A stretch of 35,628 nucleotides of DNA from Oscillospiraceae bacterium (GTDB lineage Bacteria; Bacillota; Clostridia; Oscillospirales; JAGBHD01). The notes beneath the pieces were generated by a model, which was given only the letters and a program-made list of their open reading frames with translations, did no database searches and was not told the DNA's origin. The stretch is from contig JAGBHD010000062.1 of the NCBI GenBank assembly GCA_018110785.1, positions 1 through 35,628 of the forward strand. Reading direction: 5' to 3'. This document shows, in pieces, positions 2,465 to 22,912 of the stretch. Numbering within the stretch: position 1 is the first letter of the stretch; the number at the start of each line of letters is the position of its first letter. The position numbers were made by a program, and so were the translations under genes.

Positions 2465-2494
2465 GGATTTTTAAAAATTAGGAGGTGAGGCAAG

Positions 2495-2974: not shown

Positions 2975-2993
2975 AATAATATATTAATTTCTG

Positions 2994-3020
2994 AAGGGTT
3001 AAGATTTTCTCTTAACCCTT
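2994..3020 (+). other. Intercistronic hairpin between ftsL and the PBP gene
   Basis: AAGGGTTAAGA (2994-3004) pairs perfectly over 11 bp with TCTTAACCCTT (3010-3020) around a 5-base loop. It is followed by AAATTTAAAT rather than a T-run, so it is not a standard terminator. It may act as an mRNA stability or processing element within the operon. Confidence 0.55.
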
Positions 3021-3062
3021 AAATTTAAATAATGGGATACATTTTTAGATAGGAGGAGAAGA

Positions 3063-5255: not shown

Positions 5256-5288
5256 TTACATAAATACGAATATTTGAAAGGAACAGAT

Positions 5289-6749
5289 ATGATCTTATCA
5301 GAGGTGCTTCGGGGGATAGAGCATTTTTCAAGCATTCCGAACTGTGAGGTTACGGGGATTTGCTGTGATTCAAGGAAGTTTGAAAAGGGAAATATCTTCG
5401 TTTGCATCAAGGGGTTGACAAACGATTCACACGATTTGGTAACAGAGGAGCTGTCTTCGGCTGCCTCTGCTATCATATGTCAGCGCGACTTAAAGGTTAA
5501 AAATCAGATAATTGTTTCGGACACAAGAGCAGCTTTAGCTATACTTGCCGCTAACTTTTACGGCAACAGAAAAGATAAACTAAAGCTTATTGCGGTTACA
5601 GGGACTAACGGAAAAACTACCGTTTCCACGCTTATAAAACAGGTTTTGGAAAGCGTTGGTAAAAAAGCGGGACTTATAGGAACAGTTCGCTATGAGATGA
5701 ACGATTATTCTCTCCCAGCAAGATATACAACACCCGATCCTTTAGAGCTTCATCAGTTATTCGATAAAATGTATCGAATGGGGATAGAATATGTTGTTAT
5801 GGAGGCTTCTTCTCAGGCGCTAAGTCAGATGAGGCTTTTCGGTGTTGAATTTGAATTGGCTCTTTTCACCAATCTCACTCAGGACCATTTAGACTATCAC
5901 GGCAATATGGAAAATTATTATCTCGCTAAAAAAGCGCTCTTTTCGCAGAGCAAAAAGACGATAGTTAATATTGACGATGATTATGGTTTAAGGCTTTTAA
6001 AAGAGCTTAGAGAAGAAAATAAAAAGGTTGTTACCTGCTCTGCCTTTAAAGACGAGGCAGATTATGTTGGAAAGAATATTCGTTCCGACAGAACGGGGGT
6101 TTCCTTTGAGGTTGTAACGATCGGGGCTATCGGAAGAATTTTTATGAATACACCCGGAATGTTTTCTGTTTCAAACGGACTTATGGCGGCAGCGGCTTTA
6201 ACCGAGCTTTCAGTACCGCTGGGAGATACCATCAAAGCGCTTGGCGAGAGCGCAGGAGTTAAAGGCAGAAGCGAGATAATAGCTGTTCACCCCGACTTTA
6301 CCGTTATAAGCGACTATGCTCATACACCCGATTCTTTAGAGAAGATATTTTCGTCGGTTAAGGATTATGCGCCCAAAAGGGTTGTTGCTCTTTTTGGCGC
6401 GGCAGGAATGAGAGATAGCAAAAAACGCGCTATGATGGGAAAAAAGGCTGCGGAATTTGCCGATTACATTATTATAACCAGTGATAATCCAAGAAGCGAA
6501 GATGCCGAAAAGATTGCAAAAGAGGTTGAAGAGGGCGTTATAGAAAGCGGAAAGCCTTATAAAATAATTGTTGACAGATATGATGCTATTTTCTATGCTA
6601 TAGAACACGCCCAGAAAGACGATATTATCGTTCTTGCGGGAAAAGGACACGAGGATTATCAGGTTTTAGACGGAATATCTATTTATTTTGATGAACGGGA
6701 AATTGTAAAAAAAGCCATTGATAAGTTTTACGGAACCGAGGGGAAATAA
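5289..6749 (+). CDS. murE: UDP-MurNAc-L-Ala-D-Glu:meso-DAP ligase MurE
   Basis: MurE adds the third residue of the stem peptide. Motifs seen: TGTNGKTT ATP-binding loop, YTTPDPLELH, the MEASSQAL segment, SDYAHTPDSL, and the DNPR motif that marks meso-diaminopimelate specificity. Lysine-adding enzymes differ there, so this organism probably makes A1-gamma (DAP) peptidoglycan. I place the start at ATG 5289, giving 486 residues, because AAAGGA lies six bases upstream; the frame is open further up to a TTG at 5274 but without its own ribosome site. It is followed after one base by the murF start. Confidence 0.97.
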   Translation: MILSEVLRGIEHFSSIPNCEVTGICCDSRKFEKGNIFVCIKGLTNDSHDLVTEELSSAASAIICQRDLKVKNQIIVSDTRAALAILAANFYGNRKDKLKLIAVTGTNGKTTVSTLIKQVLESVGKKAGLIGTVRYEMNDYSLPARYTTPDPLELHQLFDKMYRMGIEYVVMEASSQALSQMRLFGVEFELALFTNLTQDHLDYHGNMENYYLAKKALFSQSKKTIVNIDDDYGLRLLKELREENKKVVTCSAFKDEADYVGKNIRSDRTGVSFEVVTIGAIGRIFMNTPGMFSVSNGLMAAAALTELSVPLGDTIKALGESAGVKGRSEIIAVHPDFTVISDYAHTPDSLEKIFSSVKDYAPKRVVALFGAAGMRDSKKRAMMGKKAAEFADYIIITSDNPRSEDAEKIAKEVEEGVIESGKPYKIIVDRYDAIFYAIEHAQKDDIIVLAGKGHEDYQVLDGISIYFDEREIVKKAIDKFYGTEGK

Positions 6750-6750
6750 A

Positions 6751-8109
6751 TTGAAGAGCTTAAACTTTAAAGATGTTGCGAAAGCCTTAAATTGCTCTTA
6801 CGAGGGCGAAGATTTTCCTATAACGGGTGTTTCTACCGATACAAGAACGATAGAAAAAGGAAATCTCTTTATTCCGATAATCGGAGAGAGAATGGACGGA
6901 CACGATTATATAGATAAGGCGATAGAAAACGGTGCGGCGGCGGTTTTAGCATCTAAAGAGATAAAAGAGGAAATTCCGACAATATATGTTGAAAACACAT
7001 TAGATGCTTTGATAAATCTATCTGCTTATTACCGCTCTCTTTTTTCTCCGAAGGTAGTCGGAGTTACGGGGTCGGTAGGAAAAACATCTACTAAAGAGAT
7101 GATATATGCAGCCCTTTCGGAAAGCCTTAACACTATTAAGACAATAGGCAACCGCAATAATGAAATAGGCCTTCCCCACACCCTTTTTACAATAACGCCT
7201 GAAACCGAAGCGGCTGTTATCGAGATGGGAATGGTCAACCGAGGGGAAATTGATGTTTTAACAAGGGCGGTTTGTCCCGATGTTGCCGTTATAACCAACA
7301 TAGGGGTTTCTCACATAGAAAACCTTAAAACAAGAGAAAATATCCTTTTGGCAAAATTGGAAATTGAAAACGGACTTGTCGCAGACGGTGTTATGGTGCT
7401 TTGCGCTGATAATGATTTGCTTCATTCTGTTAAAGGAAAGTTAAAGCATAAGACGATATATTATGGTATTCGTCAAAAGGCTGATATTTATGCCGACGAA
7501 ATAGAATACGGCGACAATGAAACGAGCTTTATTATTCACGACGGTGATAAAAGCTATCCCGCAAAAATTCCGACGGTTGGAGAACATAATGTTTTAAACG
7601 CTTTAGCGGCTTTTGCAGTTTGCAAGAGCTTTGGGCTAAATCCAGAGGCTTCGGTTAGAGGGCTTAAAAATTTTGAAAGCTCGGGCAGCCGACAGAAAAT
7701 ATATAAACATAACGGAGTTACAATTATTGAAGACTGCTATAATGCAAGTCCTGATTCGATGAAGGCGGCATTATGGGTACTGAAAAACATAAAAGCCGAA
7801 AGGAAAATCGCGGTTTTGGGAGATATGCTGGAGTTAGGCGAGATTTCCGAAGAAAGCCACAGAGCGGTAGGAAAAACTGCGGCGGAGAATGCTGACATAG
7901 TTTTCACTTTCGGGCCATTATCGAAGATTACGGCTAAATCAGCCGAAGAGCAGAAGGTACCCTCTTTTCATTTCGAGGATAAAAAGGCTTTAGTTTCGCT
8001 TCTTTTAGAAACAATAAAAAAAGGCGATGCAATACTTTTCAAAGGCAGCCGCGGAATGAAATTAGAGGAAGTTATAGAAGGACTACTACAGGGGGATAAA
8101 AATCAATGA
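6751..8109 (+). CDS. murF: UDP-MurNAc-tripeptide:D-Ala-D-Ala ligase MurF
   Basis: MurF attaches D-Ala-D-Ala to the tripeptide precursor. The protein shows the ATP-binding GSVGKTS motif near residue 110, GNRNNEIGLP, the EMGM segment, and EDCYNASPDSM, all typical of MurF. The likely start is TTG 6751, one base after the murE stop, with GAGGGG upstream, giving 452 residues; the frame is open further upstream but only through unlikely start codons. Its TGA stop overlaps the mraY ATG (ATGA), indicating translational coupling. Confidence 0.96.
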   Translation: MKSLNFKDVAKALNCSYEGEDFPITGVSTDTRTIEKGNLFIPIIGERMDGHDYIDKAIENGAAAVLASKEIKEEIPTIYVENTLDALINLSAYYRSLFSPKVVGVTGSVGKTSTKEMIYAALSESLNTIKTIGNRNNEIGLPHTLFTITPETEAAVIEMGMVNRGEIDVLTRAVCPDVAVITNIGVSHIENLKTRENILLAKLEIENGLVADGVMVLCADNDLLHSVKGKLKHKTIYYGIRQKADIYADEIEYGDNETSFIIHDGDKSYPAKIPTVGEHNVLNALAAFAVCKSFGLNPEASVRGLKNFESSGSRQKIYKHNGVTIIEDCYNASPDSMKAALWVLKNIKAERKIAVLGDMLELGEISEESHRAVGKTAAENADIVFTFGPLSKITAKSAEEQKVPSFHFEDKKALVSLLLETIKKGDAILFKGSRGMKLEEVIEGLLQGDKNQ

Positions 8110-9110
8110 GTATGATGACTTTAATTTGCGCGATTATTTCCTTTTGTATTACTGTTTTTTCAGGAAAATACATTATAAAAAAGCTACAGCTTCTTAATTT
8201 CGGACAGACGATCTATGAAGAGGGTCCCTCTTGGCATAAGGGTAAAAACGGAACGCCTACAATGGGCGGAATAATGTTTATTTTGGGAATAGTTTTATCC
8301 TCTTTGGTAGTTATAATTTTTTATGCTGTAAGATACGGCGGATTTTCTGCCGGAGCTGATTTAGTTCCGATAATAGCAGGAATTTTAACGGCTTTGGGAT
8401 TTTCGCTTATAGGCTTTATCGACGACTACATAAAGGTAGTTAAAAAAAGAAATCTCGGACTTACCGCTATTCAGAAATTGATATTTCAATTTTTAATCGC
8501 AGGTGTTTTTATTTACACACTAGAGTTTTCGGGTGTAATAGATACTTCGGAAATCTTACTTCCGTTTTTCGGAGAGGTTAATCTTGGTTGGGTTTATTAT
8601 CCGATAGCGGCAGTTTCTATTGTATTTATAGTTAATGCAGTTAATTTAACCGATGGATTAGACGGACTTGCCGCATCGGTTACATCGGTTTGCTCTATTG
8701 GATACCTTGTTATCGCAGTTTTGCTTGAAAAAACTCTGACTGCATCTGTTTCAGCGGCGCTTTTAGGCGGAGTTTTGGGATTTTTGGTTTACAACAGATA
8801 TCCCGCCAAGGTATTTATGGGAGATACAGGCTCTATGTTTTTAGGCGGAATGGTTGTTGTTTTAGCATTTACCATGCGCTATCCCGGACTTATATTCTTA
8901 ATGGGCGGACTTTATATTATAGAAGCCTTATCGGTATGCTTACAGGTTTTCTGGTATAAACTAACCAAAACAAGAATTTTCTTGATGTCCCCCATACATC
9001 ATCATTATGAGAAAAAGGGATATTCCGAAAACAAGATAGTAAAGCTGTTTTCAGCAATTGAGCTGATTTTTGTTATTGTTGCTGTTTTGGGAACTGTTAT
9101 TAGAATTTAA
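8106..9110 (+). CDS. mraY: Phospho-MurNAc-pentapeptide transferase MraY
   Basis: MraY is an integral membrane enzyme that transfers phospho-MurNAc-pentapeptide to undecaprenyl phosphate, giving lipid I. The 334 residues carry the catalytic-aspartate motifs DDYIKV (near 105), NLTDGLDGLA (near 180) and FMGDTGS (near 240), plus the late PIHHHYEKKG. About ten membrane helices are evident. The start overlaps the murF stop by 4 bases. murD, which usually follows or sits near mraY, is absent here. Confidence 0.98.
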   Translation: MSMMTLICAIISFCITVFSGKYIIKKLQLLNFGQTIYEEGPSWHKGKNGTPTMGGIMFILGIVLSSLVVIIFYAVRYGGFSAGADLVPIIAGILTALGFSLIGFIDDYIKVVKKRNLGLTAIQKLIFQFLIAGVFIYTLEFSGVIDTSEILLPFFGEVNLGWVYYPIAAVSIVFIVNAVNLTDGLDGLAASVTSVCSIGYLVIAVLLEKTLTASVSAALLGGVLGFLVYNRYPAKVFMGDTGSMFLGGMVVVLAFTMRYPGLIFLMGGLYIIEALSVCLQVFWYKLTKTRIFLMSPIHHHYEKKGYSENKIVKLFSAIELIFVIVAVLGTVIRI

Positions 9111-9124
9111 AGGAGAGAGAAACT

Positions 9125-10258
9125 GTGCAGAAGAAGAAAAAGGGGTTTAAAGAGCTTATTTTTGGTAAGGGCGATATGGATACCGTGTTTTTCGTTATCC
9201 TTCTCGTTATTATTACCTTTGGTCTTGTTATGCTCTTTTCTGCAAGTTTTGCCAATGCGCATTATTACAAAAACGACTCTCTCTATTTTATAAAGCGTCA
9301 GGCGGGATTTGCTATTATAGGAGTTGCCGCGATGCTGATAATCTCTAAAATAGATTATCATTTGCTCCATAAATTAGCCCTTCCTTTATATGCCGTATCG
9401 CTTCTTTTATTGGTAATAGTTCTTTTCTGTCCCCCATCTAACGGAGCAAGGCGCTGGATTCCATACCCTATAAACTTCCAGCCCTCAGAGATTGCGAAAT
9501 TTGCGGTTATTTTGCTATTTGCGCATTTAATATCATTGGAGCCAGAGAAGATGAAAACCTTTAAATACGGGTTTTTAAGATTTGTTCTTTTGCTTTTGCC
9601 TGTTGTAGGTCTGCTTTTATTGGAGCCGCACCTTTCGGGAACGATAATTATGCTTGTTATCGGCTGCGCGATGATGTTTATCGGCGGAACACAGCTTCGT
9701 TGGTTCGGAGCCGTAGGCGGAGTTGGAGTTTTAGGCCTTGGGGCGATAGTTTTAAGCGGAAAGATTGAATATGCAATGAGTCGACTTCAGGGCTGGATTG
9801 ATCCCTTTTCAGATGTTCAGGGAGATACCTATCAAACAGTTCAGTCTTTAATTGCTATCGGGTCGGGCGGAATTTTCGGAAAAGGACTCGGCAATTCAAG
9901 ACAGAAATATTTATTCTTGCCTGAGCCTCAGAACGACTTTGTTTTTGCAATTATCTGCGAGGAATTAGGACTTATCGGCGCTATTGCCGTTATAGTTTTA
10001 TTTGCGGTTTTGATCTGGAGAGGCTTGCAGATTTCCCTTAAGGCTCCAGATAAGTTCGGCGCCTTGCTTTCTGCAGGACTTATCATACAGATAGGCGTTC
10101 AGGTTGCTCTTAATATTGCGGTTGTAACAAATACGCTTCCCAATACCGGAATAAGCCTGCCGTTTTTCTCATACGGAGGAACATCGCTTTTGATGCTTAT
10201 GGCGCAGATGGGCATAGTTCTTTCGGTTTCCAGACATTCGAAAATCAAAAAGGCATAA
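9125..10258 (+). CDS. ftsW: FtsW/SpoVE-type SEDS peptidoglycan glycosyltransferase
   Basis: This SEDS-family polymerase assembles glycan strands at the septum in partnership with a class B PBP. The 377 residues start with GTG 9125 behind AAAGGAGAG and contain about ten membrane helices. Characteristic stretches are RRWIPY..FQPSEIAK, LLEPHLSGT, the extracellular loop with SDVQGDTYQTVQSLIAIGSGG, and the C-terminal LPFFSYGGTS. Location between mraY and murG fits FtsW or the sporulation paralog SpoVE; sequence by eye does not separate them. Confidence 0.95.
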   Translation: MQKKKKGFKELIFGKGDMDTVFFVILLVIITFGLVMLFSASFANAHYYKNDSLYFIKRQAGFAIIGVAAMLIISKIDYHLLHKLALPLYAVSLLLLVIVLFCPPSNGARRWIPYPINFQPSEIAKFAVILLFAHLISLEPEKMKTFKYGFLRFVLLLLPVVGLLLLEPHLSGTIIMLVIGCAMMFIGGTQLRWFGAVGGVGVLGLGAIVLSGKIEYAMSRLQGWIDPFSDVQGDTYQTVQSLIAIGSGGIFGKGLGNSRQKYLFLPEPQNDFVFAIICEELGLIGAIAVIVLFAVLIWRGLQISLKAPDKFGALLSAGLIIQIGVQVALNIAVVTNTLPNTGISLPFFSYGGTSLLMLMAQMGIVLSVSRHSKIKKA

Positions 10259-10270
10259 AAAGGAGAAGAT

Positions 10271-11377
10271 ATGAGAGTTCTTTTAGCCGGCGGCGGAACG
10301 GGCGGACATATAAATCCCGCACTCGCTATTGCCAATGAGATTAAAAAAAATGAGCCTGACAGCGAGATTTTATTCGCAGGTACCCCTAAGGGTATGGAGG
10401 CAAAGCTCGTTCCTCAGGCAGGATATAATTTTACAACCATAAAGGTTGCAGGTTTTCAGAGAAAGCTTACTCCTTATAATATTTACAGAAACATTAAAGC
10501 GCTGTGGTATTTAGTTTTTTCGGGAGCAAGGGCAGCGAGAATAATTAAAAGCTTTAAGCCCGATATTGTTATCGGAACGGGCGGATATGTAAGCGGACCG
10601 ATAGTTAAAAAGGCTCAGAATTTAGGGATTAAAACTGCTATTCATGAGCAGAATGCTTTCCCCGGTGTTACAACCAAGCTTTTAGCCCCCGCGGCAGATG
10701 CGGTTATGCTTGCATTTCCTAAAGCAAAAGAATTTTTACCCGAAAGCTGCAAATTTCATATAACGGGAAACCCCATAAGGGAATCAATTTTATTGGCAAG
10801 AAAAGATAAAAGCAGAAAGGCTTTAGGTCTTGATGATAGATTTTGTCTTCTCTCTTTCGGCGGGAGCTTAGGGGCTGAAACTATTAACAGAGTAGCCTCA
10901 GAGGTTATCGCTTTAAACATCGGAGAGTTTAACCATATCCACGCGACAGGAAAATACGGAACAGAGCTTGTTCCTGAGCTTTTAAAGAAAAAGGGTATAG
11001 AAAATCTGCCATCGGGAACTATTGTCAGAGAATATATTGATAATATGGACGAATGCTTAGCGGCGGCAGACTTAGTTGTTTGCAGAGCGGGTGCGATAAC
11101 CTTATCAGAGCTTGCGGCAGCAGGCAAGCCTGCTGTTTTAATTCCCTCGCCGAATGTTGCGGAAAATCATCAGTTTAAAAACGCAAAGGCGGTTGAAGAA
11201 AACGGAGCAGCTTTGGTTTATGAAGATAAAAATATAGATTATGAAGCTGTAGCTAAGGATATTGTTTCCTTGATAAATGATAAAAACAAGGTTAAAACTT
11301 TAGAAAAAAATGCGTCAGCTAATGCAATCGTTGATGCGAATGAGCGCATTTATAAGATAATTAAGGGCCTCTTTTAG
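10271..11377 (+). CDS. murG: Lipid II synthase MurG
   Basis: MurG transfers GlcNAc from UDP-GlcNAc to lipid I on the inner face of the membrane. The 368 residues contain the glycine-rich GGGTGGHINPAL near the N-terminus, GTGGYVSGP, HEQNAFPG, the SFGGSLGAETIN nucleotide loop and a C-domain CRAGAITLSELAAAGKP motif. The ATG is preceded by AAAAAGGAG and lies 12 bases after ftsW. Confidence 0.98.
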   Translation: MRVLLAGGGTGGHINPALAIANEIKKNEPDSEILFAGTPKGMEAKLVPQAGYNFTTIKVAGFQRKLTPYNIYRNIKALWYLVFSGARAARIIKSFKPDIVIGTGGYVSGPIVKKAQNLGIKTAIHEQNAFPGVTTKLLAPAADAVMLAFPKAKEFLPESCKFHITGNPIRESILLARKDKSRKALGLDDRFCLLSFGGSLGAETINRVASEVIALNIGEFNHIHATGKYGTELVPELLKKKGIENLPSGTIVREYIDNMDECLAAADLVVCRAGAITLSELAAAGKPAVLIPSPNVAENHQFKNAKAVEENGAALVYEDKNIDYEAVAKDIVSLINDKNKVKTLEKNASANAIVDANERIYKIIKGLF

Positions 11378-11391
11378 ATTGTCAAAAACTT

Positions 11392-11421
11392 ACTTCTTTG
11401 CATAGTATTTAGCAAAGGAGT
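11392..11421 (+). promoter_or_regulatory. Hairpin covering the murA ribosome binding site
   Basis: ACTTCTTTGC (11392-11401) can pair with GCAAAGGAGT (11412-11421) over ten base pairs with one G-U, around a 10-base loop. The right arm is the murA Shine-Dalgarno (AAAGGAGT). This could lower murA translation until opened by a ribosome, protein or RNA. Pairing is visible; regulation is inferred. Confidence 0.5.
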
Positions 11422-11430
11422 GGATTTCAT

Positions 11431-12681
11431 TTGGCAAGGTTTATAATTGAAGGAGGGCGGGCACTGAAAGGCGAAATCCGCGCCCAGGGTGCAAAAAACA
11501 GCGCCCTTCCTATTTTAACGGCATCTTTATTATGCTCAGGCAAGGTTGTAATACATAATTGTCCTAATCTTTCGGATGTTCGGGCTGTTTTCAAAATTTT
11601 AAGGCATCTTGGCGCTTCGGTTGAATTTTCAGATTCCACCGCTGTAATAGACACGGCAGGGGTAAACCGCTATGATATTCCCGATGATTTAATGCGGGAG
11701 ATGCGCTCATCGGCTTTATTTTTAGGAGCCTTGGCAGGGCGGATGGGAAAGGCGGTTATGTCCTTTCCGGGGGGCTGCGAGTTAGGTCCCAGACCTATTG
11801 ATTTACATACTTCTGCGCTTTGCAGATTGGGTTTTTCCATATGCGAGGAATACGGCGAGCTTAAGTTGGAGCGCTCGTCTATGAGAGCGGCAACCATAGA
11901 TTTAGGATTTCCGAGCGTTGGAGCAACCGAGAATATTTTATTGGCGGCGGCAATCTCAGAGGGTGAAACCATTATCACCGGAAGCGCAAGAGAGCCTGAG
12001 ATTATTGATCTTGCCGCTTTTTTGAATTCTGCAGGCGCTGATATAAAGGGTGCAGGCGAAAGCACAATTTTAATAAAGGGTGTTAAAAGGCTTTACGGAA
12101 CAGAATACGGCGTTATGAGCGACAGAATAGAAACGGCTACATATATGTCCTTCGCGGGGCTTACGGGCGGAGAAATTTTTATAAAGGGAGCAGATCCATC
12201 TGCCTTATCGGCTGTAATACCTGTTGTTGAAGCGGCGGGACCGAGGGTTTATCCCGTTCCCGGAGGAATTTACATAAACGGGCGGGGAACAATTTATTCT
12301 GTTCCGCCTATAAGAACGATGCCCTATCCCGGATTTCCTACAGATGCTCAAGCACCGATAATGGCGATGCTTTCTATTGCCAGAGGAACAACTATTTTTA
12401 TTGAAAATATTTTTGAAAGCCGATACAAGCATGTTGACGAGCTTAACAGAATGGGCGCCGATATTCGGACTGAGGGGCGAACGGCTGTTGTGAGCGGAGT
12501 CCCCAAATTATACGGAGCTAAAGTAGTTGCTAAAGATTTAAGAGGCGGAGCGGCGCTTGTAGGCGCGGCGCTTTGCGCAGAGGGCAGAAGCGAAATAAAG
12601 GGAATTTGCCATATTGACAGAGGATATCAAAGCTTGGATACTACACTTAAAAGCTTAGGTGCAGATATAATTAGGAAGTGA
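11431..12681 (+). CDS. murA: UDP-GlcNAc 1-carboxyvinyltransferase MurA
   Basis: MurA transfers enolpyruvate from PEP to UDP-GlcNAc, the first committed step of peptidoglycan synthesis and the fosfomycin target. Motifs seen: GAKNSALPIL with the catalytic lysine, FPGGCELGPRP with the PEP-binding cysteine retained (so fosfomycin sensitivity is expected at this site), and PYPGFPTDAQAP. The 416-residue length is normal. The start is TTG 11431 with a strong AAAGGAGTGG site that lies in a hairpin. Its stop overlaps the open frame of the next gene. Whether a second murA exists elsewhere cannot be seen. Confidence 0.97.
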   Translation: MARFIIEGGRALKGEIRAQGAKNSALPILTASLLCSGKVVIHNCPNLSDVRAVFKILRHLGASVEFSDSTAVIDTAGVNRYDIPDDLMREMRSSALFLGALAGRMGKAVMSFPGGCELGPRPIDLHTSALCRLGFSICEEYGELKLERSSMRAATIDLGFPSVGATENILLAAAISEGETIITGSAREPEIIDLAAFLNSAGADIKGAGESTILIKGVKRLYGTEYGVMSDRIETATYMSFAGLTGGEIFIKGADPSALSAVIPVVEAAGPRVYPVPGGIYINGRGTIYSVPPIRTMPYPGFPTDAQAPIMAMLSIARGTTIFIENIFESRYKHVDELNRMGADIRTEGRTAVVSGVPKLYGAKVVAKDLRGGAALVGAALCAEGRSEIKGICHIDRGYQSLDTTLKSLGADIIRK

Positions 12682-12689
12682 AAAATCTT

Positions 12690-13484
12690 ATGAAAGACGT
12701 TAAAAAAGAGAGTATTCAGAGAGAAAGCGCTATAAAGAAGAATACGGCTAAGCACAAAAAGAGAAGAAAAAGAAATTTATCTCTTTATTATTTTCTTATG
12801 GGGCTTTTAACTGTCAGCGTTCTTATTGTGCTTTCTCTTACTGTTTTCTTTAAGATCACAGAGGTTACGCTAAGCGGGGAGAGTCAGTATTCAGAGAGCG
12901 AAATTTTATCTTCAGCCGCTATATCTATCGGAAGCAATCTCATAATGCTCGATACCGAGAAGATTGAGAATAAGCTGTTGGATGATTTTCTTCTTATTGA
13001 CAGCGTTGACGTTAAAAAGCAGCTTCCGTCAAGGGTTGAAATTTTGATAAGTCCGGCGGTTAATTTTTTTCAGATAATGGCAGATGACGGGCGCTATATG
13101 ACGGTTTCCTCAAACTACAAGGTTTTAGCTCTTTCTATAGAAAAAGATGAATCCTTAATGCTTATAGAAGGGATTTCACCTGCTTCCTTAAGAGAGGGAA
13201 GTATGATTGGCGACAGTATGCAGGGCAAAGAAGCCTTGGTTAAATCTATTTTTTCTTCCTTTTCCTCATACGGCATAACCGACATTAGAGGGATAAACTT
13301 TATTTCGGCGGCAGATATTCGCGTTAATATAGAGGGCAGACTTCAGGTTAAGCTTGGCTCTGAATCGAAGATGGATTATAAAATTCAGCTTGTAAGCGCG
13401 GTTATAAACGAAAAAATTGGCGAAAATGAAAGCGGAATTATTGATGCAACTGTTGAAGGTACGGCAGGATTTATTGCCTCTTAA
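12690..13484 (+). CDS. ftsQ: Cell division protein FtsQ/DivIB
   Basis: This is a bitopic divisome protein. A very basic cytoplasmic tail (many K/R) precedes a membrane helix around residues 30-52, then a POTRA domain (ITEVTLSGESQYSESEIL) and the conserved LPSRVEILI stretch. I prefer ATG 12690 (264 residues) because AGGAAGTGA lies upstream; a GTG at 12678 in the same frame overlaps the murA stop but has no ribosome site. It sits between murA and ftsZ, the usual Firmicutes place. Confidence 0.88.
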   Translation: MKDVKKESIQRESAIKKNTAKHKKRRKRNLSLYYFLMGLLTVSVLIVLSLTVFFKITEVTLSGESQYSESEILSSAAISIGSNLIMLDTEKIENKLLDDFLLIDSVDVKKQLPSRVEILISPAVNFFQIMADDGRYMTVSSNYKVLALSIEKDESLMLIEGISPASLREGSMIGDSMQGKEALVKSIFSSFSSYGITDIRGINFISAADIRVNIEGRLQVKLGSESKMDYKIQLVSAVINEKIGENESGIIDATVEGTAGFIAS

Positions 13485-13502
13485 AATAATTTCATAAAAC
13501 CC

Positions 13503-13531
13503 TTGCAAAGCGAGAATATTTCCTATATAAT
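13503..13531 (+). promoter_or_regulatory. ftsZ promoter
   Basis: TTGCAA (13503-13508) and TATAAT (13526-13531) are spaced by 17 bases in the 102-base ftsQ-ftsZ gap. This gives ftsZ a supply independent of the long upstream operon. Confidence 0.72.
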
Positions 13532-13586
13532 AAATATGTATAGGTGCATAATGAATGCATAGAAAAGAAAGCCGGAGGAATTTAAA

Positions 13587-14690
13587 ATGAGTTTTGTTCT
13601 CGATAACGATGATTACGAACAGGTCGTTTCTATAAAGGTTGTAGGAGTTGGCGGCGGCGGCGGAAACGCTGTTAACCGTATGATTGATTCGGGTGTTACC
13701 AGCGTTGATTTTATTGCTGTTAATTCGGACAAGCAGGCGCTTAATTTCTCGAAAGCTCCTAATAAGATTCAGATCGGCGATAAATTAACAAAAGGAAGAG
13801 GCGCGGGCGGATTCCCTGAAATCGGAAGAAAATGCGCTGAGGAAAGCCGCGATGAAATCGCAGCAGCTTTAAAAGGAACTCAGATGGTATTTATAACAGC
13901 AGGAATGGGCGGCGGAACAGGAACAGGTGCAGCTCCCGTTGTTGCTGAGGTTGCAAAAGAGCTTGGTATTTTAACCGTTGGCATTGTTACAAAGCCTTTT
14001 GGTTTTGAAGGAAGAAGAAAGGCAGAGCAGGCTGAAGAGGGAATTCAAAACCTCAAAGAGCATGTTGATTCCCTTATTATCATTCCTAACGACAGATTAA
14101 AGCTCGTAAGAGAAGAGAGAATAACCCTTGCTAATGCTTTCGAAATTGCTGATAGTGTATTGAAACAGGGTGTTGCAAGTATTTCTGATATTATCAATAT
14201 CCCAGGTCTTGTTAACCTTGACTTCCAGGATATTACAACAATTATGAAGGATGCGGGCTATGCTCATATGGGCATAGGAAACGCGAAGGGCGAGAACAAG
14301 GCTGCAGAGGCTGCAAATATGGCAATAAGCAGTCCGCTCTTAGAAACCTCTATAAAGGGCGCAAAGAGAGTTATTCTCAATATTACCTCTTCGCCTGATA
14401 TCGGTCTTGATGAGGTTGAGCTTGCTTCTTCTATGATTACAGACGCGGCTTCTCCTGATGCTAATGTTATCTGGGGTGCGGCATTTGATGATAAGTTAGT
14501 TGATGAGATGCAGATTACACTTATTGCAACAGGCTTCGGTGATACTGCTAAATTTGCGCTTGATGATCCTTTTGCAGATCTCCCTGAAAGCGTTTTCAGC
14601 GATAATACTGTTAAAACAAATCAGGAAAATCCTTTAGACGATTCTTTCAGAGAAGCAATGAGAATTCTCAACAGAAGAGAAAAAGAATAA
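13587..14690 (+). CDS. ftsZ: Cell division GTPase FtsZ
   Basis: FtsZ is the tubulin-like protein that forms the division ring. Seen: [13 protein letters not shown] near residue 21, the tubulin signature [12 protein letters not shown] near 107, and the T7-loop NLDFQD near 207 that completes the GTPase site of the neighbouring subunit. The 367-residue length is normal, with a short linker ending in [11 protein letters not shown], a plausible but degenerate version of the C-terminal peptide that binds membrane anchors. No ftsA is adjacent, so another anchor such as SepF would be needed locally. The ribosome site is CCGGAGGAA. Confidence 0.98.
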
Positions 14691-15699: not shown

Positions 15700-16776
15700 T
15701 TAACCTATCAGAAGCTTGAATACGCCTTTTTCTTTAAGAAAAGCTATATCCTCTTCGCTGAAAGAGGGGGCGCAAACGATTATTTCGCGCTCGCCTTTCT
15801 GAGCTATAGCGGACTTAAGCTCTTCGCTTAAAGAGGCTGCTTTTATATTTATTTCGCCCTCGAAAAGGGAAGTGCCATATTTATTTTCATCAAGTACGAT
15901 ATAATCTTCTGCGCTTACTTCGAATGAGACGGAGACGGAGATTTCTGCAGGAACAGCCTCTTTTAAAGCAGCGGAGAAGCTGGTTAGAAGAGCTGATTTA
16001 TCAATAGCGGTATCATCATCTGAGAAAGCGGCGTTTGAGTTATCAACAAACCAGAAGCTTTTAAAGATTATTTCATCAACACCTGTTTTAGCGGCATCTG
16101 CGGCCAAGGAAGACAAATAATCCTTTGTTTTATCCGATGCGGGGGAAAGCCAGGTTATTCTGTCTGTTCCGTCTAACATTAAATAAGATGTATCGTTTTT
16201 AAAGCGAACTGCCATAGATATATTTTCTGTTCCGTAAACCAATCGGGGAAGCTTATCGTCTTTAAAGGTTTCAAACGTTCCGATAGTCTTTATTTCTGCG
16301 GCTTTGAGCTTTGATATTAAAACATCGGCAGATTGGGAAACAGCCTTTGTACGAATGGCGAGTTCGTTTTCAGTTGAAAAATAAATTCCTTCAGCTGTTT
16401 TTAAAGGTACTGCTGCGGCAGAAAATCCGTCAGTCTTGATTTTTTCTACCAATGCATCATAGCTATCTATAGCTAAAATTTCTTCCTCTGTTATATAACG
16501 AATATTATAGGATATGGTTTCTACAGGGGTTACAGGCGGAACTACTTCGTCTGACGGCGCTGCAGAGCTATTATCTACCGCGGGCAGAGAGGGAGCATCG
16601 GGGGTTGTTACCTTGTTATAGAGCATATCTGTAAGCGGGCCTAGAACCGCAAAAGAAATTGCAAAAACTACTACACATCCTAACACAATTAGAGCAATTT
16701 TTATCAATTTTTTGTTGTTTTTTCGATGGTAAGGTGAGCGAAAGTGCTTTACCTTATATACTTTTTTTCGCGCCAT
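15700..16776 (-). CDS. Membrane-anchored protein resembling glycoside hydrolase-like (DUF4015-type) barrels
   Basis: The 358-residue protein has a very basic N-terminus, one membrane helix about residues 25-48, a proline/serine-rich linker, then an extracytoplasmic domain. That domain resembles the TIM-barrel DUF4015 putative glycoside hydrolases. The order is a strand plus GIYF segment (GFSAAAVPLKTAEGIYF), an LISKLKAAEIKTIG helix-strand, a TWLSPAS stretch near residue 200 and GVDEIIFKSFWF near 225, where the family has lGFDEIqfDYvRFP. The acidic pair usually seen there is partly lost, so activity is doubtful. AGGAGG precedes the ATG; it lies 15 bases after the rnfA-like gene and 12 before pyrR. 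The homology call is by eye and tentative. Confidence 0.5.
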   Translation of the reverse strand: MARKKVYKVKHFRSPYHRKNNKKLIKIALIVLGCVVVFAISFAVLGPLTDMLYNKVTTPDAPSLPAVDNSSAAPSDEVVPPVTPVETISYNIRYITEEEILAIDSYDALVEKIKTDGFSAAAVPLKTAEGIYFSTENELAIRTKAVSQSADVLISKLKAAEIKTIGTFETFKDDKLPRLVYGTENISMAVRFKNDTSYLMLDGTDRITWLSPASDKTKDYLSSLAADAAKTGVDEIIFKSFWFVDNSNAAFSDDDTAIDKSALLTSFSAALKEAVPAEISVSVSFEVSAEDYIVLDENKYGTSLFEGEINIKAASLSEELKSAIAQKGEREIIVCAPSFSEEDIAFLKEKGVFKLLIG

Positions 16777-16791
16777 TTAACTTATGACCTC

Positions 16792-17391
16792 CTAAAATGA
16801 GAGATTATGACCGGAAAGACCGTAAAACGCTAATGACATTAAACCAATGAAAAGAATTTTAATTGGAGTTCCTCTAAAGGGTTTTAGAATTTTATTGCTT
16901 TCAAGATATTCGGCGGAATAAGACATTAAGAAGGTTGCCAAAAGAAAGCCGATAACGCTTCCTATAGAAAGAATTATGCATTGAGGCAGAGATAGGTTTT
17001 GTCTGCCTTGGAGCATAAGAATTCCAACTGTTATATAAGAATAAACGGAGGAGGGAACCATTGAAAGAAGCTCATTTTTAAGGTCTTCTTTTTTTATGAA
17101 GGAAACGCCTACTCCTGAGAGAAAATAAAAAACAGTTACAACAATAATAGAGATTGCGGGGAATATGATGTTTTTTGTGTTTTGATGGAGAACTAAAAAT
17201 TGACCTTCTACAAAATAGCAAACGAGCGAGGACGGGAGCAGAATAACTAGTAGCGCGGCGGAATAGATAAGAAGCTCTTTCTTATCTTTCATATATCTGA
17301 AGGATTTACTTGAGCCGAGTCCGCGCGCGAAAACAACATTTTCGGTAAAAGCTACTAAGAGGAAATAGGAGAAGATTTCAGAAAATGACAT
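16792..17391 (-). CDS. RnfA/NqrE-like membrane protein lacking the iron-sulfur cysteines
   Basis: The 199-residue protein has six predicted membrane helices and clear RnfA/NqrE homology: ENVVFARGLG near residue 17 and KPFRGTPI...GLMSLAF near residues 170-189. In RnfA/NqrE, one cysteine in the FLGxC motif and one in ITVNC bind a membrane [2Fe-2S] cluster. Here the first motif is GLGSS (Ser28) and the second ITVGI (Ile124). The two cysteines present (58 and 138) lie elsewhere. So electron transfer through this subunit appears lost, while the fold is retained. Its ATG overlaps the rnfE-like stop (TAATG), and its ribosome site AAAAGGAGG lies inside that gene. Confidence 0.88.
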   Translation of the reverse strand: MSFSEIFSYFLLVAFTENVVFARGLGSSKSFRYMKDKKELLIYSAALLVILLPSSLVCYFVEGQFLVLHQNTKNIIFPAISIIVVTVFYFLSGVGVSFIKKEDLKNELLSMVPSSVYSYITVGILMLQGRQNLSLPQCIILSIGSVIGFLLATFLMSYSAEYLESNKILKPFRGTPIKILFIGLMSLAFYGLSGHNLSF

Positions 17392-17984
17392 TATTTATCC
17401 CTCCTTTTAATAATTGCGGAGATAGCCTTGATAATGGCTCCGATGAAGGCAACGATAAAATATCCAAAGAAAGGGAACAAGGCCCCAGGGATAGTAGCTG
17501 AATGAATTTCATTTCCAAAAACAGTACCGCTGCCGATAAATTCTCTTATTATAGAAACTACAAAAACAACTAAAACGAATCAAAGAACTCCGATAAATGC
17601 ATTTCGCACAACCGAGAGGTAATTTTTTCTGCTTCCGGATAAAGAGTTTACAAGCAATATAGAGTTTACTGAAAGAATGGGGAGATAAATTCCTAAGCTT
17701 TCGAAAGCAACCGAGTCCATCTTAATTATTGCAATACTTGCAAGGATTCCCATAAATGAAGCGAGCAGGAATATAGATGGAACCTTATAAAAATCGGGCA
17801 GTTTTTCAAACAAAAGATGCGAAAGAAGAATTGTAGGAATGGTTACGATAAGCATAACTATCGATAATAAAAGCGCATTTTTAAAGGAAATTCCTGCGAC
17901 AACGATAGGAGCTAAGGCGGAAGCGTTGAAAACAACGGGATTTCGGGTTAAAAGGTCGGAAAGAAATGCGACAACTTTTTTCAT
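17391..17984 (-). pseudogene. RnfE/NqrD-like gene interrupted by an in-frame TGA
   Basis: From ATG 17984 the frame runs 134 codons to TGA (17582-17580), then continues open for 62 codons with unmistakable RnfE sequence (SIIREFIGSGTVFG) to TAA 17393-17391, overlapping the rnfA-like ATG. The TGA falls where RnfE/NqrD has a conserved glycine ahead of the REx(I/F)G motif, so one GGA to TGA change explains it. The Fe-S cysteines are also missing: NPVVFNASALAP has Ala25 where the family has GLCP, and LPILSVNS has Ser108 where it has VNC. Either a recent nonsense mutation, a sequencing error, or a truncated but functional product. Confidence 0.85.
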
Positions 17985-19000
17985 ATTGCCTTTTTCTCCT
18001 TTCTTTTAATTATCTTGTCGAGAAATTGTTTTACATATTTTACAAGCTTTAAAGAAAGCTTTAAGGCATCAGGGGAAATTTGGTTAAAGAAAGGTATCAT
18101 AATTGATGTTAATAAAAGAGCAAAGCAGAAGCTTTCCTCAAAGCCGCCGAAGAAGCGGAAGAAAACCGAGAAAATACCTGTTGCTAATGAGAAGAGAATA
18201 CCGGCGGTTTTATTTTCTAAAAAGCGCCCGAATCGAGGGACCATAAAAACTGCTCCGAAGGCAACAGAGCCTGACAGAAGCTCAAATATTGAAGCGGTTA
18301 AGGGATTTATTGTTGTACGGTTGAAGATAAGCGATAGAATAAAGAAGGTTATTAAGGTTGTAGCGGTCATATAGGTTCCGTTTTTTTTGCGCTGAATGAA
18401 AACTATAAATGCCGCAAGAATTAAGAATATGCAGGTTGTTCCCATAGCGCCCGGTACTGCTCCAAGAAGCATTTCCCATATGCTATATATAGGTTTTCCG
18501 CCCATCATAAGGGCTTTTGCCGGAGAGGTTGTTAAAAGGGCAGGATCTATAGATTTAAAGGCGGGAAGGGTTGTAAACGGAACGGGGAAGCGGAATATTT
18601 CTGCTGACCAGCTTATAGCGCAGAAGCAAAATGCTGCGGCAACCGAGCTGATATGGCAGTTTTTCTCGCCGCCGAAGGGCAGGAGAACTATAAACTGCGC
18701 AAACAGCGCTCCGAATATGACCATCCAATATGAGGCTGATGGCGGAAGCAAGCATACAAAAAGAGCGCCTATAACTGCCGGCTCTAAGTTAGCTATGCGG
18801 ATAATTCTGCCGCTGAGCTTTTCGCATATCCAGTTTCCTATAAAAGAAACGACAATGGAGGTTAAAAATAAGAGTATAACTCGGATACCGTAATAAAAAG
18901 CAGAGCCAATCTCCAGGCAGATAAGGCAGATCAAGAAAATAAAATCGTCCTTAAGCTTTTGACGCATATCTTCGCTGAGAAGAGCGCGGCTTCTTGCCAT
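17981..19000 (-). CDS. RnfD/NqrB-like membrane protein without the flavinylation motif
   Basis: The 339 residues form about nine membrane helices with RnfD/NqrB features: VIGALFVCLLPPSASYW near residue 77, the FGG...SSVAAAF segment, and LLGAVPGAMGTT near 178, which matches the family's FLGxxxGxxGETS. Canonical RnfD has an (S/T)GAT motif whose threonine carries covalent FMN; at that place (about residues 152-161) this protein reads DPALLTTSPA, so the motif is not recognisable. First gene of the operon; its last 4 bases overlap the rnfE-like start. The ribosome site is AAAGGA, ten bases before the ATG. Homology is clear; loss of flavin attachment is inferred. Confidence 0.85.
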   Translation of the reverse strand: MARSRALLSEDMRQKLKDDFIFLICLICLEIGSAFYYGIRVILLFLTSIVVSFIGNWICEKLSGRIIRIANLEPAVIGALFVCLLPPSASYWMVIFGALFAQFIVLLPFGGEKNCHISSVAAAFCFCAISWSAEIFRFPVPFTTLPAFKSIDPALLTTSPAKALMMGGKPIYSIWEMLLGAVPGAMGTTCIFLILAAFIVFIQRKKNGTYMTATTLITFFILSLIFNRTTINPLTASIFELLSGSVAFGAVFMVPRFGRFLENKTAGILFSLATGIFSVFFRFFGGFEESFCFALLLTSIMIPFFNQISPDALKLSLKLVKYVKQFLDKIIKRKEKKAI

Positions 19001-19070: not shown

Positions 19071-19604
19071 TTGTTTTTACAAAGACTTAACAGCAATCAG
19101 ATTAAGATAAATATGACAGCTGCCGAGCTTAAAAAGATAGGCGTTTTTACGAAGAAAAAATTCAGCGATAGCGATGCGCGGAAAATTATAGGCTTTCTTA
19201 TGACCAAAAGCGCGGTTTTTATACCTGAGGGTAATTTTAATTTAAACTTTAAGGGAACTCGCAAGGGCGGCATGGAAATTATGATTACAAAGACTCAAAA
19301 TAAGATTACAGGCGGAATAGGGAAACCGCTTATTTTTCGCTTTGAAGACGATAAAGCGCTATCGAGAGCCGCTGCGGAAATTTCTCGCCGCCACGGACAT
19401 AAAATTTTATCCAGCGATTTATATTTATATAAGGATAATTATTATCTTATAATATATCCTTTGATAGGATTATCTGTTGACTTTTTTATTTTATTGGGAG
19501 AGTTTTCCTTTTTCTATGGATATGGAAGAGAAAAGGTTTCTTCCATATCGGAGCACAGCCGCCTTTTGGAAAAGGGGCGAGCGATAGAAAAATTATGCCT
19601 TTAG
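19071..19604 (+). CDS. MecA-like adaptor protein
   Basis: MecA proteins deliver substrates to the ClpC unfoldase. The 177-residue protein has the bipartite MecA pattern. The N-terminal LQRLNSNQIKINMTAAEL corresponds to the substrate-binding region. The C-terminal half has FRFEDDKALSRAAAEI, SDLYLYKDNYYLII and a last stretch with LGEFSFFYG...LLEKGRAIEKL, matching the ClpC-binding domain. Length is a little below the Bacillus protein. Start TTG 19071 behind GGGAGG. It is divergent from the rnf-like operon and overlaps the 3' end of rpe by 12 bases tail to tail. Confidence 0.75.
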   Translation: MFLQRLNSNQIKINMTAAELKKIGVFTKKKFSDSDARKIIGFLMTKSAVFIPEGNFNLNFKGTRKGGMEIMITKTQNKITGGIGKPLIFRFEDDKALSRAAAEISRRHGHKILSSDLYLYKDNYYLIIYPLIGLSVDFFILLGEFSFFYGYGREKVSSISEHSRLLEKGRAIEKLCL

Positions 19605-20225
19605 GATTTTAACTGCCTCTGATTTATCTTGAGCTTTGAAAAAGTAGGAGCCTGCAACTAATGTATCGGCGCCTGCTTTTTTAGCTAAAGGGGCGGTTTT
19701 ATCATCAATTCCTCCGTCAACTGAAAGGAGAATATCGGGCTTCCAAGCGCGTATCTTTTCGATTTTGGGAAGGACCTCTGGCATAAAGCTTTGTCCGCCA
19801 AAGCCCGGCTCTACCGACATTACCAAAACAGAATCTATTTTATCAAGATAGGGAAGCAGGGCTTCTGCTTCGGTTTTAGGCTTTATTGATATGCCGCATT
19901 TTTTATTTTCTTTTTTTATAGCGGCTATGGTTTCATCAATATCGCTGTTGCATTCAAGATGAAAGGTTATCATATCGCTTCCTGCATCGGAAAATGCCTT
20001 GATATAGCTAAGCGGGTCAATTATCATTAAATGAGTATCGAAAAAGAGGTCGCTTTTTGCTCTCAGACTTTTTATAACGGGAATGCCGAAAGAAATATTA
20101 TTAACGAAAAGCCCGTCCATAACGTCGAGATGGATAAACTCTGCGCCGCTTTCTTTAACGGCTGAAAGCTCCTTTTCTAAATTTCCAAAATCTGCTGCTA
20201 AAAGCGAAGGAGAAACCTTTATCAC
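19593..20225 (-). CDS. rpe: Ribulose-phosphate 3-epimerase
   Basis: Rpe interconverts ribulose 5-phosphate and xylulose 5-phosphate in the pentose phosphate pathway. The 210-residue TIM barrel starts SPSLLAADFGNLEKE, with HLDVMDGLFVNN (metal ligands), DTHLMI, MSVEPGFGGQSF and SVDGGID, all family signatures. Start GTG 20225 with GGAG ten bases upstream. It is a lone gene between mecA-like and tRNA-Gln, with its own promoter. Confidence 0.97.
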   Translation of the reverse strand: MIKVSPSLLAADFGNLEKELSAVKESGAEFIHLDVMDGLFVNNISFGIPVIKSLRAKSDLFFDTHLMIIDPLSYIKAFSDAGSDMITFHLECNSDIDETIAAIKKENKKCGISIKPKTEAEALLPYLDKIDSVLVMSVEPGFGGQSFMPEVLPKIEKIRAWKPDILLSVDGGIDDKTAPLAKKAGADTLVAGSYFFKAQDKSEAVKILKA

Positions 20226-20894: not shown

Positions 20895-22001
20895 TCATCC
20901 TTTTAATTCACATAAAGCCTCATATATAGGTTTTGCAATAAGGGAGGCGGTATATTCTGCTTCCTTTAGAGTATTGGCATGGGAGCCGATTTCAATAAGG
21001 GTAGCTCCGGTTGAAAGGTTTTGATTATATTTTGAATAGTTGAAGAAAACGGGCTTGGTAAGTCCCGGATAAGAGGTTTCGATATGACTTTCCAAAAGAG
21101 CATTAAGACGAAGATTTTCAGCCCAATCGGGAAAGTTCATATTTCCGTTATCACAGCCCGACAAAATCATAATCTGAGCCGCCTTTTTGCCGTTTATTAT
21201 AGCGGTAGGCTTAACTCTTGTATTGGCATCGGGCTCTATAGCGTCGCGATGCAGATCGATAATTATTTTAATATCGGGGTACTTTTCGGTATATTCTGCG
21301 ACAGAGGCGGCCTCTCTTGTATAGGCACCGTTGAAGGTTACATCATGCTGAGTAGTACAATGGACTACGCCGATGCCGAGCTTCTGAAGCTCGCTTGTAA
21401 GCACCGCGCCTACGCGCACCATATTATTTTCGTTATCGGAATTTCTTGAGGGTATTGTTTTATCGAAAACGCCGCTGTCGTAAGGATTGTAACACTCAGT
21501 TGCGTGGGTATGGAGGATCAATACCTCAATCGTACCGTCGCATTTAAGAGAGATGTTAGGTTTTTGAGAGATTATATTTAAAACATCTTCGTTTGAATGT
21601 GTTGTGGAATTTTTTATATATCCGCCGCCATGAGAAAGGATATTTCCGCCTGCAGAAAAAAGATACTGAACTTCATTTATAACACCTTTATTTTCTTCTG
21701 AGACCTTTTGAGTTTCTGTTGGAACACCGAGCACCATTTGGGCTGTTTCTTCTTGAGGCTTAGATGAGCTTTCGCTTTTATGAAAAACCTCGTATGAAAT
21801 TTTTTCGGAAAAATTTTCGCCGCCTGAACTGAAAATTGTTTGAAGTCCTCCCGGAACAAAAAGCCCTGCGCTGAAAAGAGAAATGCCGCCTGAAACCTCA
21901 GGCAGAGAGGTTATAATGCTCGAAAAAGCAGATAGAAATAGGCAAAAACCACAAGCGAAGGAGATAAAACGATATTTATGATTTTTTATAAAATGTTTCA
22001 T
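20895..22001 (-). CDS. spoIIP: Stage II sporulation protein P
   Basis: SpoIIP is a peptidoglycan amidase/endopeptidase that, with SpoIID and SpoIIM, drives engulfment of the forespore. After an N-terminal membrane segment (residues ~13-35) the catalytic domain shows VLILHTHATECYNPY with the zinc-binding histidine, IDLHRDAI, and the late GATLIEIGSHANTLKEAE. I take ATG 22001 (368 residues) because GAGGTGTG lies upstream; the frame is open to 22049, overlapping gpr, without a ribosome site. The gpr-spoIIP order is the classical one. Confidence 0.96.
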   Translation of the reverse strand: MKHFIKNHKYRFISFACGFCLFLSAFSSIITSLPEVSGGISLFSAGLFVPGGLQTIFSSGGENFSEKISYEVFHKSESSSKPQEETAQMVLGVPTETQKVSEENKGVINEVQYLFSAGGNILSHGGGYIKNSTTHSNEDVLNIISQKPNISLKCDGTIEVLILHTHATECYNPYDSGVFDKTIPSRNSDNENNMVRVGAVLTSELQKLGIGVVHCTTQHDVTFNGAYTREAASVAEYTEKYPDIKIIIDLHRDAIEPDANTRVKPTAIINGKKAAQIMILSGCDNGNMNFPDWAENLRLNALLESHIETSYPGLTKPVFFNYSKYNQNLSTGATLIEIGSHANTLKEAEYTASLIAKPIYEALCELKG

Positions 22002-22048
22002 TTTCACACCTCGGTTAAATATATGCTTACCGAGGGACCATAATTCCA

Positions 22049-22912
22049 TCAGAGGACAAGATAATCGAGATCTTCCTTAGAAATTTTGGGAAACAAGGCG
22101 CGGTTTAATGAAGAAGAAATAAGCTTGGCGGTTTTTGCAATCAGCCGATCAACATCTTTCGGGGTTACAACCATATTTTCGGATATGCTATTTCCGCCGC
22201 CATCCCTTATAATAGAATCGGCATCGGTAACGGTGGGAATGCCTACCGCTATAACGGGAATGCCGCCTAAGGAGTCTTTGGAGATTTTTTTGCGGCGATT
22301 TTGAACTCTGCTTCCCGGAGATATGCCCGTATCGGTTATTTGAACGGTATTGAAAAGTCGGGTTATGCTTGAAGCGGCAAGGGCATCTATAACGATAACT
22401 GCCGCAGCAGAAACCGAGTTTGCAACAACGCGGACGGTTTCTTCACTTTCTATTCCTGTTTGCCCTAAAACTCCGACAGGCAGGGCGCATACATTTCTTA
22501 GTCCTAAAAGCCCTGTTTCTTCTGCCACTTCCTTTGGAATATGACGGGTTGTGAAAATTTTTCCTACCGCCATAGGACCTAAGGCATCGGGGGTTATTTC
22601 AGAATTCCCGAGTCCTGCTATAAGGATTGTACCAAAAGAAGGGAGAAGAGATCCAAATATGTCCGACAGAGCGTTTTCTGCAGCGGTTTCGCTTTCGGGG
22701 TCGGAGATAAAGTTGGGGATATTAACGGTTATATAGCGCCCTTTATCCTTTCCTAAGGTTTCGGCGGCAGAATCGGTTAATACATTTATATCGGTACATT
22801 TGCAACCGAATTTTTCATACTCATTTTTTTCGATGCCCTCTATCTCTTTATCTTTGGGTTTGGCGGTAATATTTTCAAAATGCTCTATTGCGAGGTCAGT
22901 TCTTCCTCTCAT
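22049..22912 (-). CDS. gpr: Germination protease GPR
   Basis: GPR degrades small acid-soluble spore proteins at germination. The 287 residues begin MRGRTDLAIEHFE, where the RTDLAxE sequence resembles the propeptide/SASP cleavage signature. They continue with ILIAGLGNSEITPDALGP, ALPVGVLGQTGIES and VIVIDALAA, typical of the family. Length is somewhat shorter than the ~370 residues of Bacillus GPR, common in Clostridia. AAAGGAG precedes the ATG. It is divergent from rpsT, a common arrangement. Confidence 0.96.
   Translation of the reverse strand: MRGRTDLAIEHFENITAKPKDKEIEGIEKNEYEKFGCKCTDINVLTDSAAETLGKDKGRYITVNIPNFISDPESETAAENALSDIFGSLLPSFGTILIAGLGNSEITPDALGPMAVGKIFTTRHIPKEVAEETGLLGLRNVCALPVGVLGQTGIESEETVRVVANSVSAAAVIVIDALAASSITRLFNTVQITDTGISPGSRVQNRRKKISKDSLGGIPVIAVGIPTVTDADSIIRDGGGNSISENMVVTPKDVDRLIAKTAKLISSSLNRALFPKISKEDLDYLVL

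Follow-up and report, generated by a model that had tools for sequence, protein, structure and literature searches.

A membrane trio in an Oscillospirales genome that may be a stripped, non-redox remnant of an rnf operon

In anaerobes, Rnf counts as a marker of energy conservation. Standard annotation gives the names RnfD, RnfE and RnfA to genes such as the three described here. The question this locus raises is what such membrane proteins do when the residues that hold the redox cofactors are gone. The window, by which we mean the whole 35,628-nt stretch that was analysed, corresponds to contig C22; the draft genome is 1.40 Mb in size and 97.5% complete. A preliminary description had proposed that the trio (here D', E' and A') kept the membrane fold of Rnf, lost electron transfer and became a repurposed complex.

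All three proteins scored above the Pfam cut-offs (Table 1). They missed the NCBIfam cut-offs for rnfD, rnfE and rnfA (79.5 versus 207 bits for D', 36 versus 213 for E' and 46 versus 229 for A'). Profile matches to PDB entries also support the homology. Judged by these profiles, D', E' and A' clearly belong, as had been claimed, to the RnfD/NqrB and RnfA/E-NqrD/E families, of which they are true but distant homologues, and the gene set and its extent (16792-19000) also stood.

Table 1. Coordinates of the trio, of its neighbours in the window and of the operons of genus g38
Feature	Coordinates	Strand	Evidence
D', RnfD/NqrB-like membrane protein, 339 aa	17981..19000	-	PF03116, 140.8 bits (E 8e-41)
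E', RnfE/NqrD-like membrane protein, one in-frame TGA	17391..17984	-	PF02508, 58.9 bits
A', RnfA/NqrE-like membrane protein, 199 aa	16792..17391	-	PF02508, 55.6 bits
DUF4015 TIM-barrel gene, conserved operon partner of the trio	15700..16776	-	PF13200, 55 bits
MecA-like gene, divergent neighbour, locus marker	19071..19604	+	PF05389, 29 bits
rpe (ribulose-phosphate 3-epimerase), locus-marking flank	19593..20225	-	homologue in relatives
g38 rnfCDGEAB-DUF4015 operon	L062:874-7004
g38 rnfCDGEAB-DUF4015 operon	L150:524-6536
g38 rnfCDGEAB-DUF4015 operon	L151:3616-9011

The predicted structures point the same way. The AlphaFold model of D' (pLDDT 87) matched RnfD in Foldseek (9eri_D, E 6e-13), with TM scores to RnfD of 0.76-0.84. 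For A' (pLDDT 84), VIA-align gave Z scores of 14.2-15.4 to RnfA/NqrE versus 7.3 for the best unrelated chain; the weak matches, which included MgtE and ABC transporters, had Z scores of 7.3 or less. The models of D' and A' therefore support the view that the membrane fold has been kept.

The trio lies on the minus strand, with rpe and the divergent MecA-like gene on one side and the DUF4015 gene on the other. In the loci of relatives that carry the same module (the variant loci), the MecA-like gene has the same position, and so has the rpe homologue in nearly all of them; rpe also adjoins one canonical operon (L166). Adjoining the trio's operon, the window holds genes that resemble a dcw-type cell-division and cell-wall cluster with ftsZ at its end (1538-14690). 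By eye, positions 20895-22049 encode a SpoIIP-like sporulation protein, in a genome of 1.4 Mb.

We aligned the cofactor positions against 23 canonical operons, using A. woodii numbering for the riboflavin and ion-site residues (PMC11889175). The canonical controls had four of four [2Fe-2S] cluster cysteines in 23 of 23 cases, and the FMN-threonine was present in all. In the window trio none of the four cysteines is left: C25 and C113 of RnfA correspond to Ser28 and Tyr119 in A', and C25 and C108 of RnfE to Ala25 and Ser108 in E', which contains no cysteine at all. The FMN-threonine motif is missing from D', where the region reads TTSPA, and both riboflavin residues are replaced in addition (N123 by Ser, D249 by Arg). 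The preliminary description had named the same RnfE-like and RnfD-like sites; for A' it was right about Ser28, and its second site, Ile124, was off by five residues. It had also allowed that other cysteines of A' might occupy the cluster site. We rejected the two that A' has as substitute ligands because their positions differ from the aligned cluster sites.

The subunits that would feed such cofactors are missing too. As had been stated, RnfB, RnfC and RnfG are not nearby: none was found within the window. Beside the trio we found no NqrF, NqrA or NqrC partner, the NqrD/E cysteines are absent as well, and the Pfam match of D' is to PF03116 alone, with no fused NqrF-type NAD-binding domain (PF00175). 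In A. woodii, Rnf mutants that lack these cysteines or N123/D249 no longer carry out ferredoxin-dependent NAD+ reduction (PMC11889175). Taken together, the loss of ligands in the trio and their essentiality in A. woodii mean that electron transfer along the Rnf path by the trio is not credible. A complete canonical operon, for which the preliminary description had suggested looking, is present elsewhere in the genome: contig C30 has rnfC-D-G-E-A-B with its full set of ligands. No DUF4015 gene is among the ORFs listed beside it. A recent duplication of this operon as the source of the trio was rejected by an AU test (p 0.021) and by synteny.

The window copy has a further peculiarity, an in-frame TGA in E' at 17580-17582, which leaves an uninterrupted ORF of 17580-17984. 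Beyond the TGA, 62 more codons stay in frame and include conserved motifs (REFIGSGTVFG...), the closing stop overlaps the start of A', and a PF02508 match of 60 bits spans the TGA (17439-17969). The affected column is Gly in 23 of 23 canonical and 24 of 25 other variant sequences. We rejected a reading of TGA as Trp, because TGA ends 8 other genes of the window including D'; for selenocysteine, a search for SelB gave nothing above the cut-off. The window copy has also lost residues that relatives keep: the Arg-Glu pair of RnfE is Lys/Leu, N112 of RnfA is Ser, and N123 and D249 are gone. Its branch is the longest in the tree (2.2-2.4 changes per column), and no other copy is as degenerate. D' and A' are nevertheless open over 339 and 199 codons, even though about 4% of all single-base substitutions in them (122/3051 and 78/1791) lead to a stop codon. 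The stop in E' is either recent, an error of the draft genome, or the onset of decay in this copy. The window's family is represented in the sample by this one genome, and a contig scan with D' gave 17 loci, all of them Rnf or Rnf/Nqr-type operons of other groups and none a close relative of the window.

We looked for the module with A' and with a profile of the A' family in 295 genomes sampled from the order, and verified the matches by gene neighbourhood. It is present in at least 35 of them with the window genome counted (at least 34 others), in five families, so the same trio with the same neighbour does recur in many genomes of the order, a point that the preliminary description had proposed to check. 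In 391 genomes of the class, no match from beyond the order scored higher than 137 bits, and the ones that ranked in the top 30 were of the canonical type, although a more divergent module could hide below the canonical scores.

In these relatives the electron ligands are lost as well. Among 26 aligned variants (the window and 25 relatives), 16 loci have no cluster cysteine and 10 have one, which answers the objection that relatives might keep the canonical residues and that the trio is merely a decaying pseudo-operon; for the family this does not hold, and the window copy itself may be decaying. RnfB and RnfG were not found in the annotated variant loci. An RnfC-like protein (C') is kept in 11 examined loci, and the six that we read all have both four-cysteine ferredoxin motifs, for two [4Fe-4S] clusters, and have lost the glycine-rich NADH/FMN motif. 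Residues of the riboflavin site persist in most of 26 relatives (D249 in 19, with Glu in 5 more, and N123 in 17). The earlier statement that all redox centres are lost is thus right for the window and too strong for most relatives, where riboflavin residues remain and some loci keep the RnfC-like protein.

The ion site shows a different pattern. Among the same 26 relatives, all 26 have RnfA N112, 23 have RnfE R67 and 19 have RnfE E115; a second set, richer in f23 genomes, has E115 in 14 of 25. Most have lost RnfA R154, the residue facing RnfB, and RnfA E88, the third member of the ion-pair network, which is gone nearly everywhere. We computed dN/dS for pairs of relatives: the closest pair (L042/L044) gave 0.04-0.06 for D, E and A, more distant pairs 0.07-0.39, and a canonical control pair 0.07-0.14. 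These low values indicate that purifying selection maintains the module in the relatives. Some f23 genomes have a C-terminal extension of E' of about 150-210 residues with no Pfam match (L059:3726-4928, L065:4167-5225, L066:4153-5232), and in one of them a CAP-domain gene (L059:2919-3692) lies between D' and E'.

Where the module came from can be read in part from trees and in part from synteny. In two trees the variants form one clade apart from canonical Rnf (support 100/100 and 98/95), the placement of which is affected by long branches. The AU test did not reject a grouping of the variants with DUF4015-linked operons (p 0.205) and rejected one with unlinked canonical operons (p 0.021). This agrees with synteny, and together they favour descent from a DUF4015-linked canonical operon. 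Such operons exist in many families: a DUF4015 gene follows canonical rnfCDGEAB at L152, L154, L162-L166, L168-L170, L173, L177 and L178, and some canonical operons lie beside rpe (L166) or a MecA-like gene (L168, L173). We found no report in the literature of this association in the order.

At the rpe/mecA-DUF4015 locus, present-day genomes form a graded series: canonical CDGEAB, cysteine-poor CDGEAB, C'D'E'A', D'E'A', and no rnf genes. The cysteine-poor state is seen in genus g38 of family f3 (Table 1), which keeps RnfG, the FMN-threonine and the riboflavin residues and has one of four cluster cysteines; RnfB was not found at one of its loci (L151). The tree places g38 inside the canonical operons of f3, so cysteines were lost at least twice, and the g38 operon is an independent, partly dismantled Rnf. 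Another locus (L167) reads rpe, mecA, C, D, E, A, DUF4015, with the FMN-threonine, the riboflavin residues and one cysteine kept and RnfG and RnfB absent. The C'D'E'A' arrangement occurs in four families, and D'E'A' in the window and many f26 genomes. At the end of the series, two f9 loci (L174:5452-8416 and L176:2-2698) have rpe, the mecA-like gene and DUF4015 without rnf genes between them; the genome of the first (G008) is a single contig without any RnfA match. The series is one of states of present-day genomes and is not proof of one line of descent.

The preliminary description had suggested a possible tie between the trio and its operon partner, a glycoside-hydrolase-like surface protein. 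The neighbour is indeed conserved: at 26 of 35 variant loci a DUF4015 gene lies no more than 6 kb away, and the 9 exceptions all belong to one family. The tie is not specific, since DUF4015 also adjoins canonical rnfCDGEAB and persists without rnf. From the f23 loci without DUF4015 and the f9 loci with DUF4015 and no rnf genes, we conclude that neither strictly depends on the other. DUF4015 domains are found fused to YkyA domains, as with polysaccharide deacetylases (PMC12700454).

Our preferred reading, to which we give a probability of about one half, is that the trio is a stripped remnant of an rpe/mecA-linked rnf operon, now non-redox and probably an ion-linked membrane complex. The ancestor would have been an rpe/mecA-linked rnfCDGEAB followed by a DUF4015 gene. 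It would have lost, step by step, the [2Fe-2S] cysteines, RnfB, RnfG and the FMN-threonine, the NADH-binding motif of RnfC and then RnfC itself, and in the window genome the riboflavin residues too, with energy-conserving electron transfer left to the second, complete rnfCDGEAB. What would be under selection in the relatives is RnfD and the alternating-access core of RnfA/E (the half-helix Asn and the Arg67-Glu115 pair of RnfE). Na+ has been seen beside the R67-E115 pair in A. woodii (PMC11889175), and a review notes that the half-helix architecture of RnfA-E recalls ion and solute symporters with alternating access (PMC12174285). The complex would still switch between inward-open and outward-open states, and would pass an ion or small solute, or pass ion-driven motion to the extracellular DUF4015 protein. 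That the fold and the ion-site residues are kept while the electron ligands are lost is our main ground for proposing an ion-linked non-redox function of the family. We infer the assembly of the complex, its ion link and its joint work with DUF4015. The more specific idea that the RnfA/E core is an ion-gradient-driven machine that powers an extracellular glycan-acting TIM-barrel protein, or that moves a cell-wall-related solute, is quite unlikely to be right as it stands.

By sequence, the ion-linked reading fits the relatives better than the window copy, because the latter lacks the Arg-Glu pair, N112 and the riboflavin residues, and its E' frame is broken by a stop. The claim of a repurposed complex is thus partly supported: the fold is kept, the ligands are lost and the trio is conserved, but the window copy may be decaying. 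A relic in the window genome, with selection relaxed, E' broken and the module used by relatives alone, is somewhat unlikely in our judgement. The TGA at a near-invariant Gly column, its status as an ordinary stop here, the long branch and the loss of N112, N123, D249, R67 and E115, which all or most relatives keep, speak for it, but D' and A' are still open over their full length, the reading frame and motifs of E' continue past the TGA, the operon has stayed intact, the folds were predicted with confidence and the single stop may be a draft-genome error. The trio could instead be a scaffold that anchors or positions the glycan-related DUF4015 protein in the membrane and moves nothing. We regard this as unlikely: it would suit the frequent proximity of DUF4015 and its fusions to YkyA, but DUF4015 already has its own membrane anchor, f23 mostly has the module without DUF4015 and f9 genomes the reverse, and a scaffold gives no reason why the buried Asn and the Arg-Glu pair have been kept. 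Where C' is present, electrons might also pass between its two [4Fe-4S] clusters and the riboflavin of D', in keeping with the ferredoxin motifs of C' and with N123 and D249 in most relatives. Such a shortened redox device is improbable, given that RnfB, RnfG, the FMN-threonine and the [2Fe-2S] cluster are all absent, that C' has lost its NADH/FMN motif and is absent at many loci and in the window, and that the window D' has neither riboflavin residue. Homology and the standard annotation would suggest a second working Rnf ferredoxin:NAD+ oxidoreductase, which is how rnfDEA of Faecalibacterium duncaniae was read (PMC10781979); with all four cluster ligands and the electron-input and shuttle subunits missing, and the same cysteines essential in A. 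woodii (PMC11889175), we give this almost no credence.

Compared with known systems, the trio is closest to Rnf itself (A. woodii 9eri, C. tetanomorphum 7zc6), with which it shares homologous D, E and A in the same order, predicted folds, and locus and neighbours; unlike Rnf, it has no RnfB, RnfG, [2Fe-2S] cysteines or FMN-threonine, and in the window no RnfC or riboflavin residues. Na+-NQR has a homologous membrane core (NqrB, NqrD, NqrE) and derives from Rnf, having lost RnfB and gained NqrF (PMC4014512), so partial dismantling of Rnf has a precedent, but NQR still has all its membrane cofactors, whereas the trio has no replacement for RnfB. The Nqr/Rnf-like flavinylation clusters (PMC8238504) are also partial derivatives built on an NqrB/RnfD homologue; these redox systems include an NqrF-type NAD-binding domain as well as a subunit that binds FMN, while the trio has neither and keeps A and E. 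Our literature search found no description of a cysteine-less or cofactor-less Rnf paralogue, and the sole similar gene set was rnfDEA of F. duncaniae A2-165 (CG447_09840-830), which was interpreted as belonging to an NADH:ferredoxin oxidoreductase (PMC10781979). It has the same three genes in a genome that also has rnfCDGEAB, and from this gene content it probably belongs to the same family as the trio.

If our preferred reading is true, the "second rnf operons" of this order would not encode electron pumps, and metabolic schemes that include them, as in F. duncaniae, would need correction. A cysteine-less core would make it possible to test directly if RnfA/E still moves ions when the cluster is gone. 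It is rare to see, at one locus, a series of grades between a full Rnf and none, and these suggest that a redox machine was dismantled step by step and then kept for another job.
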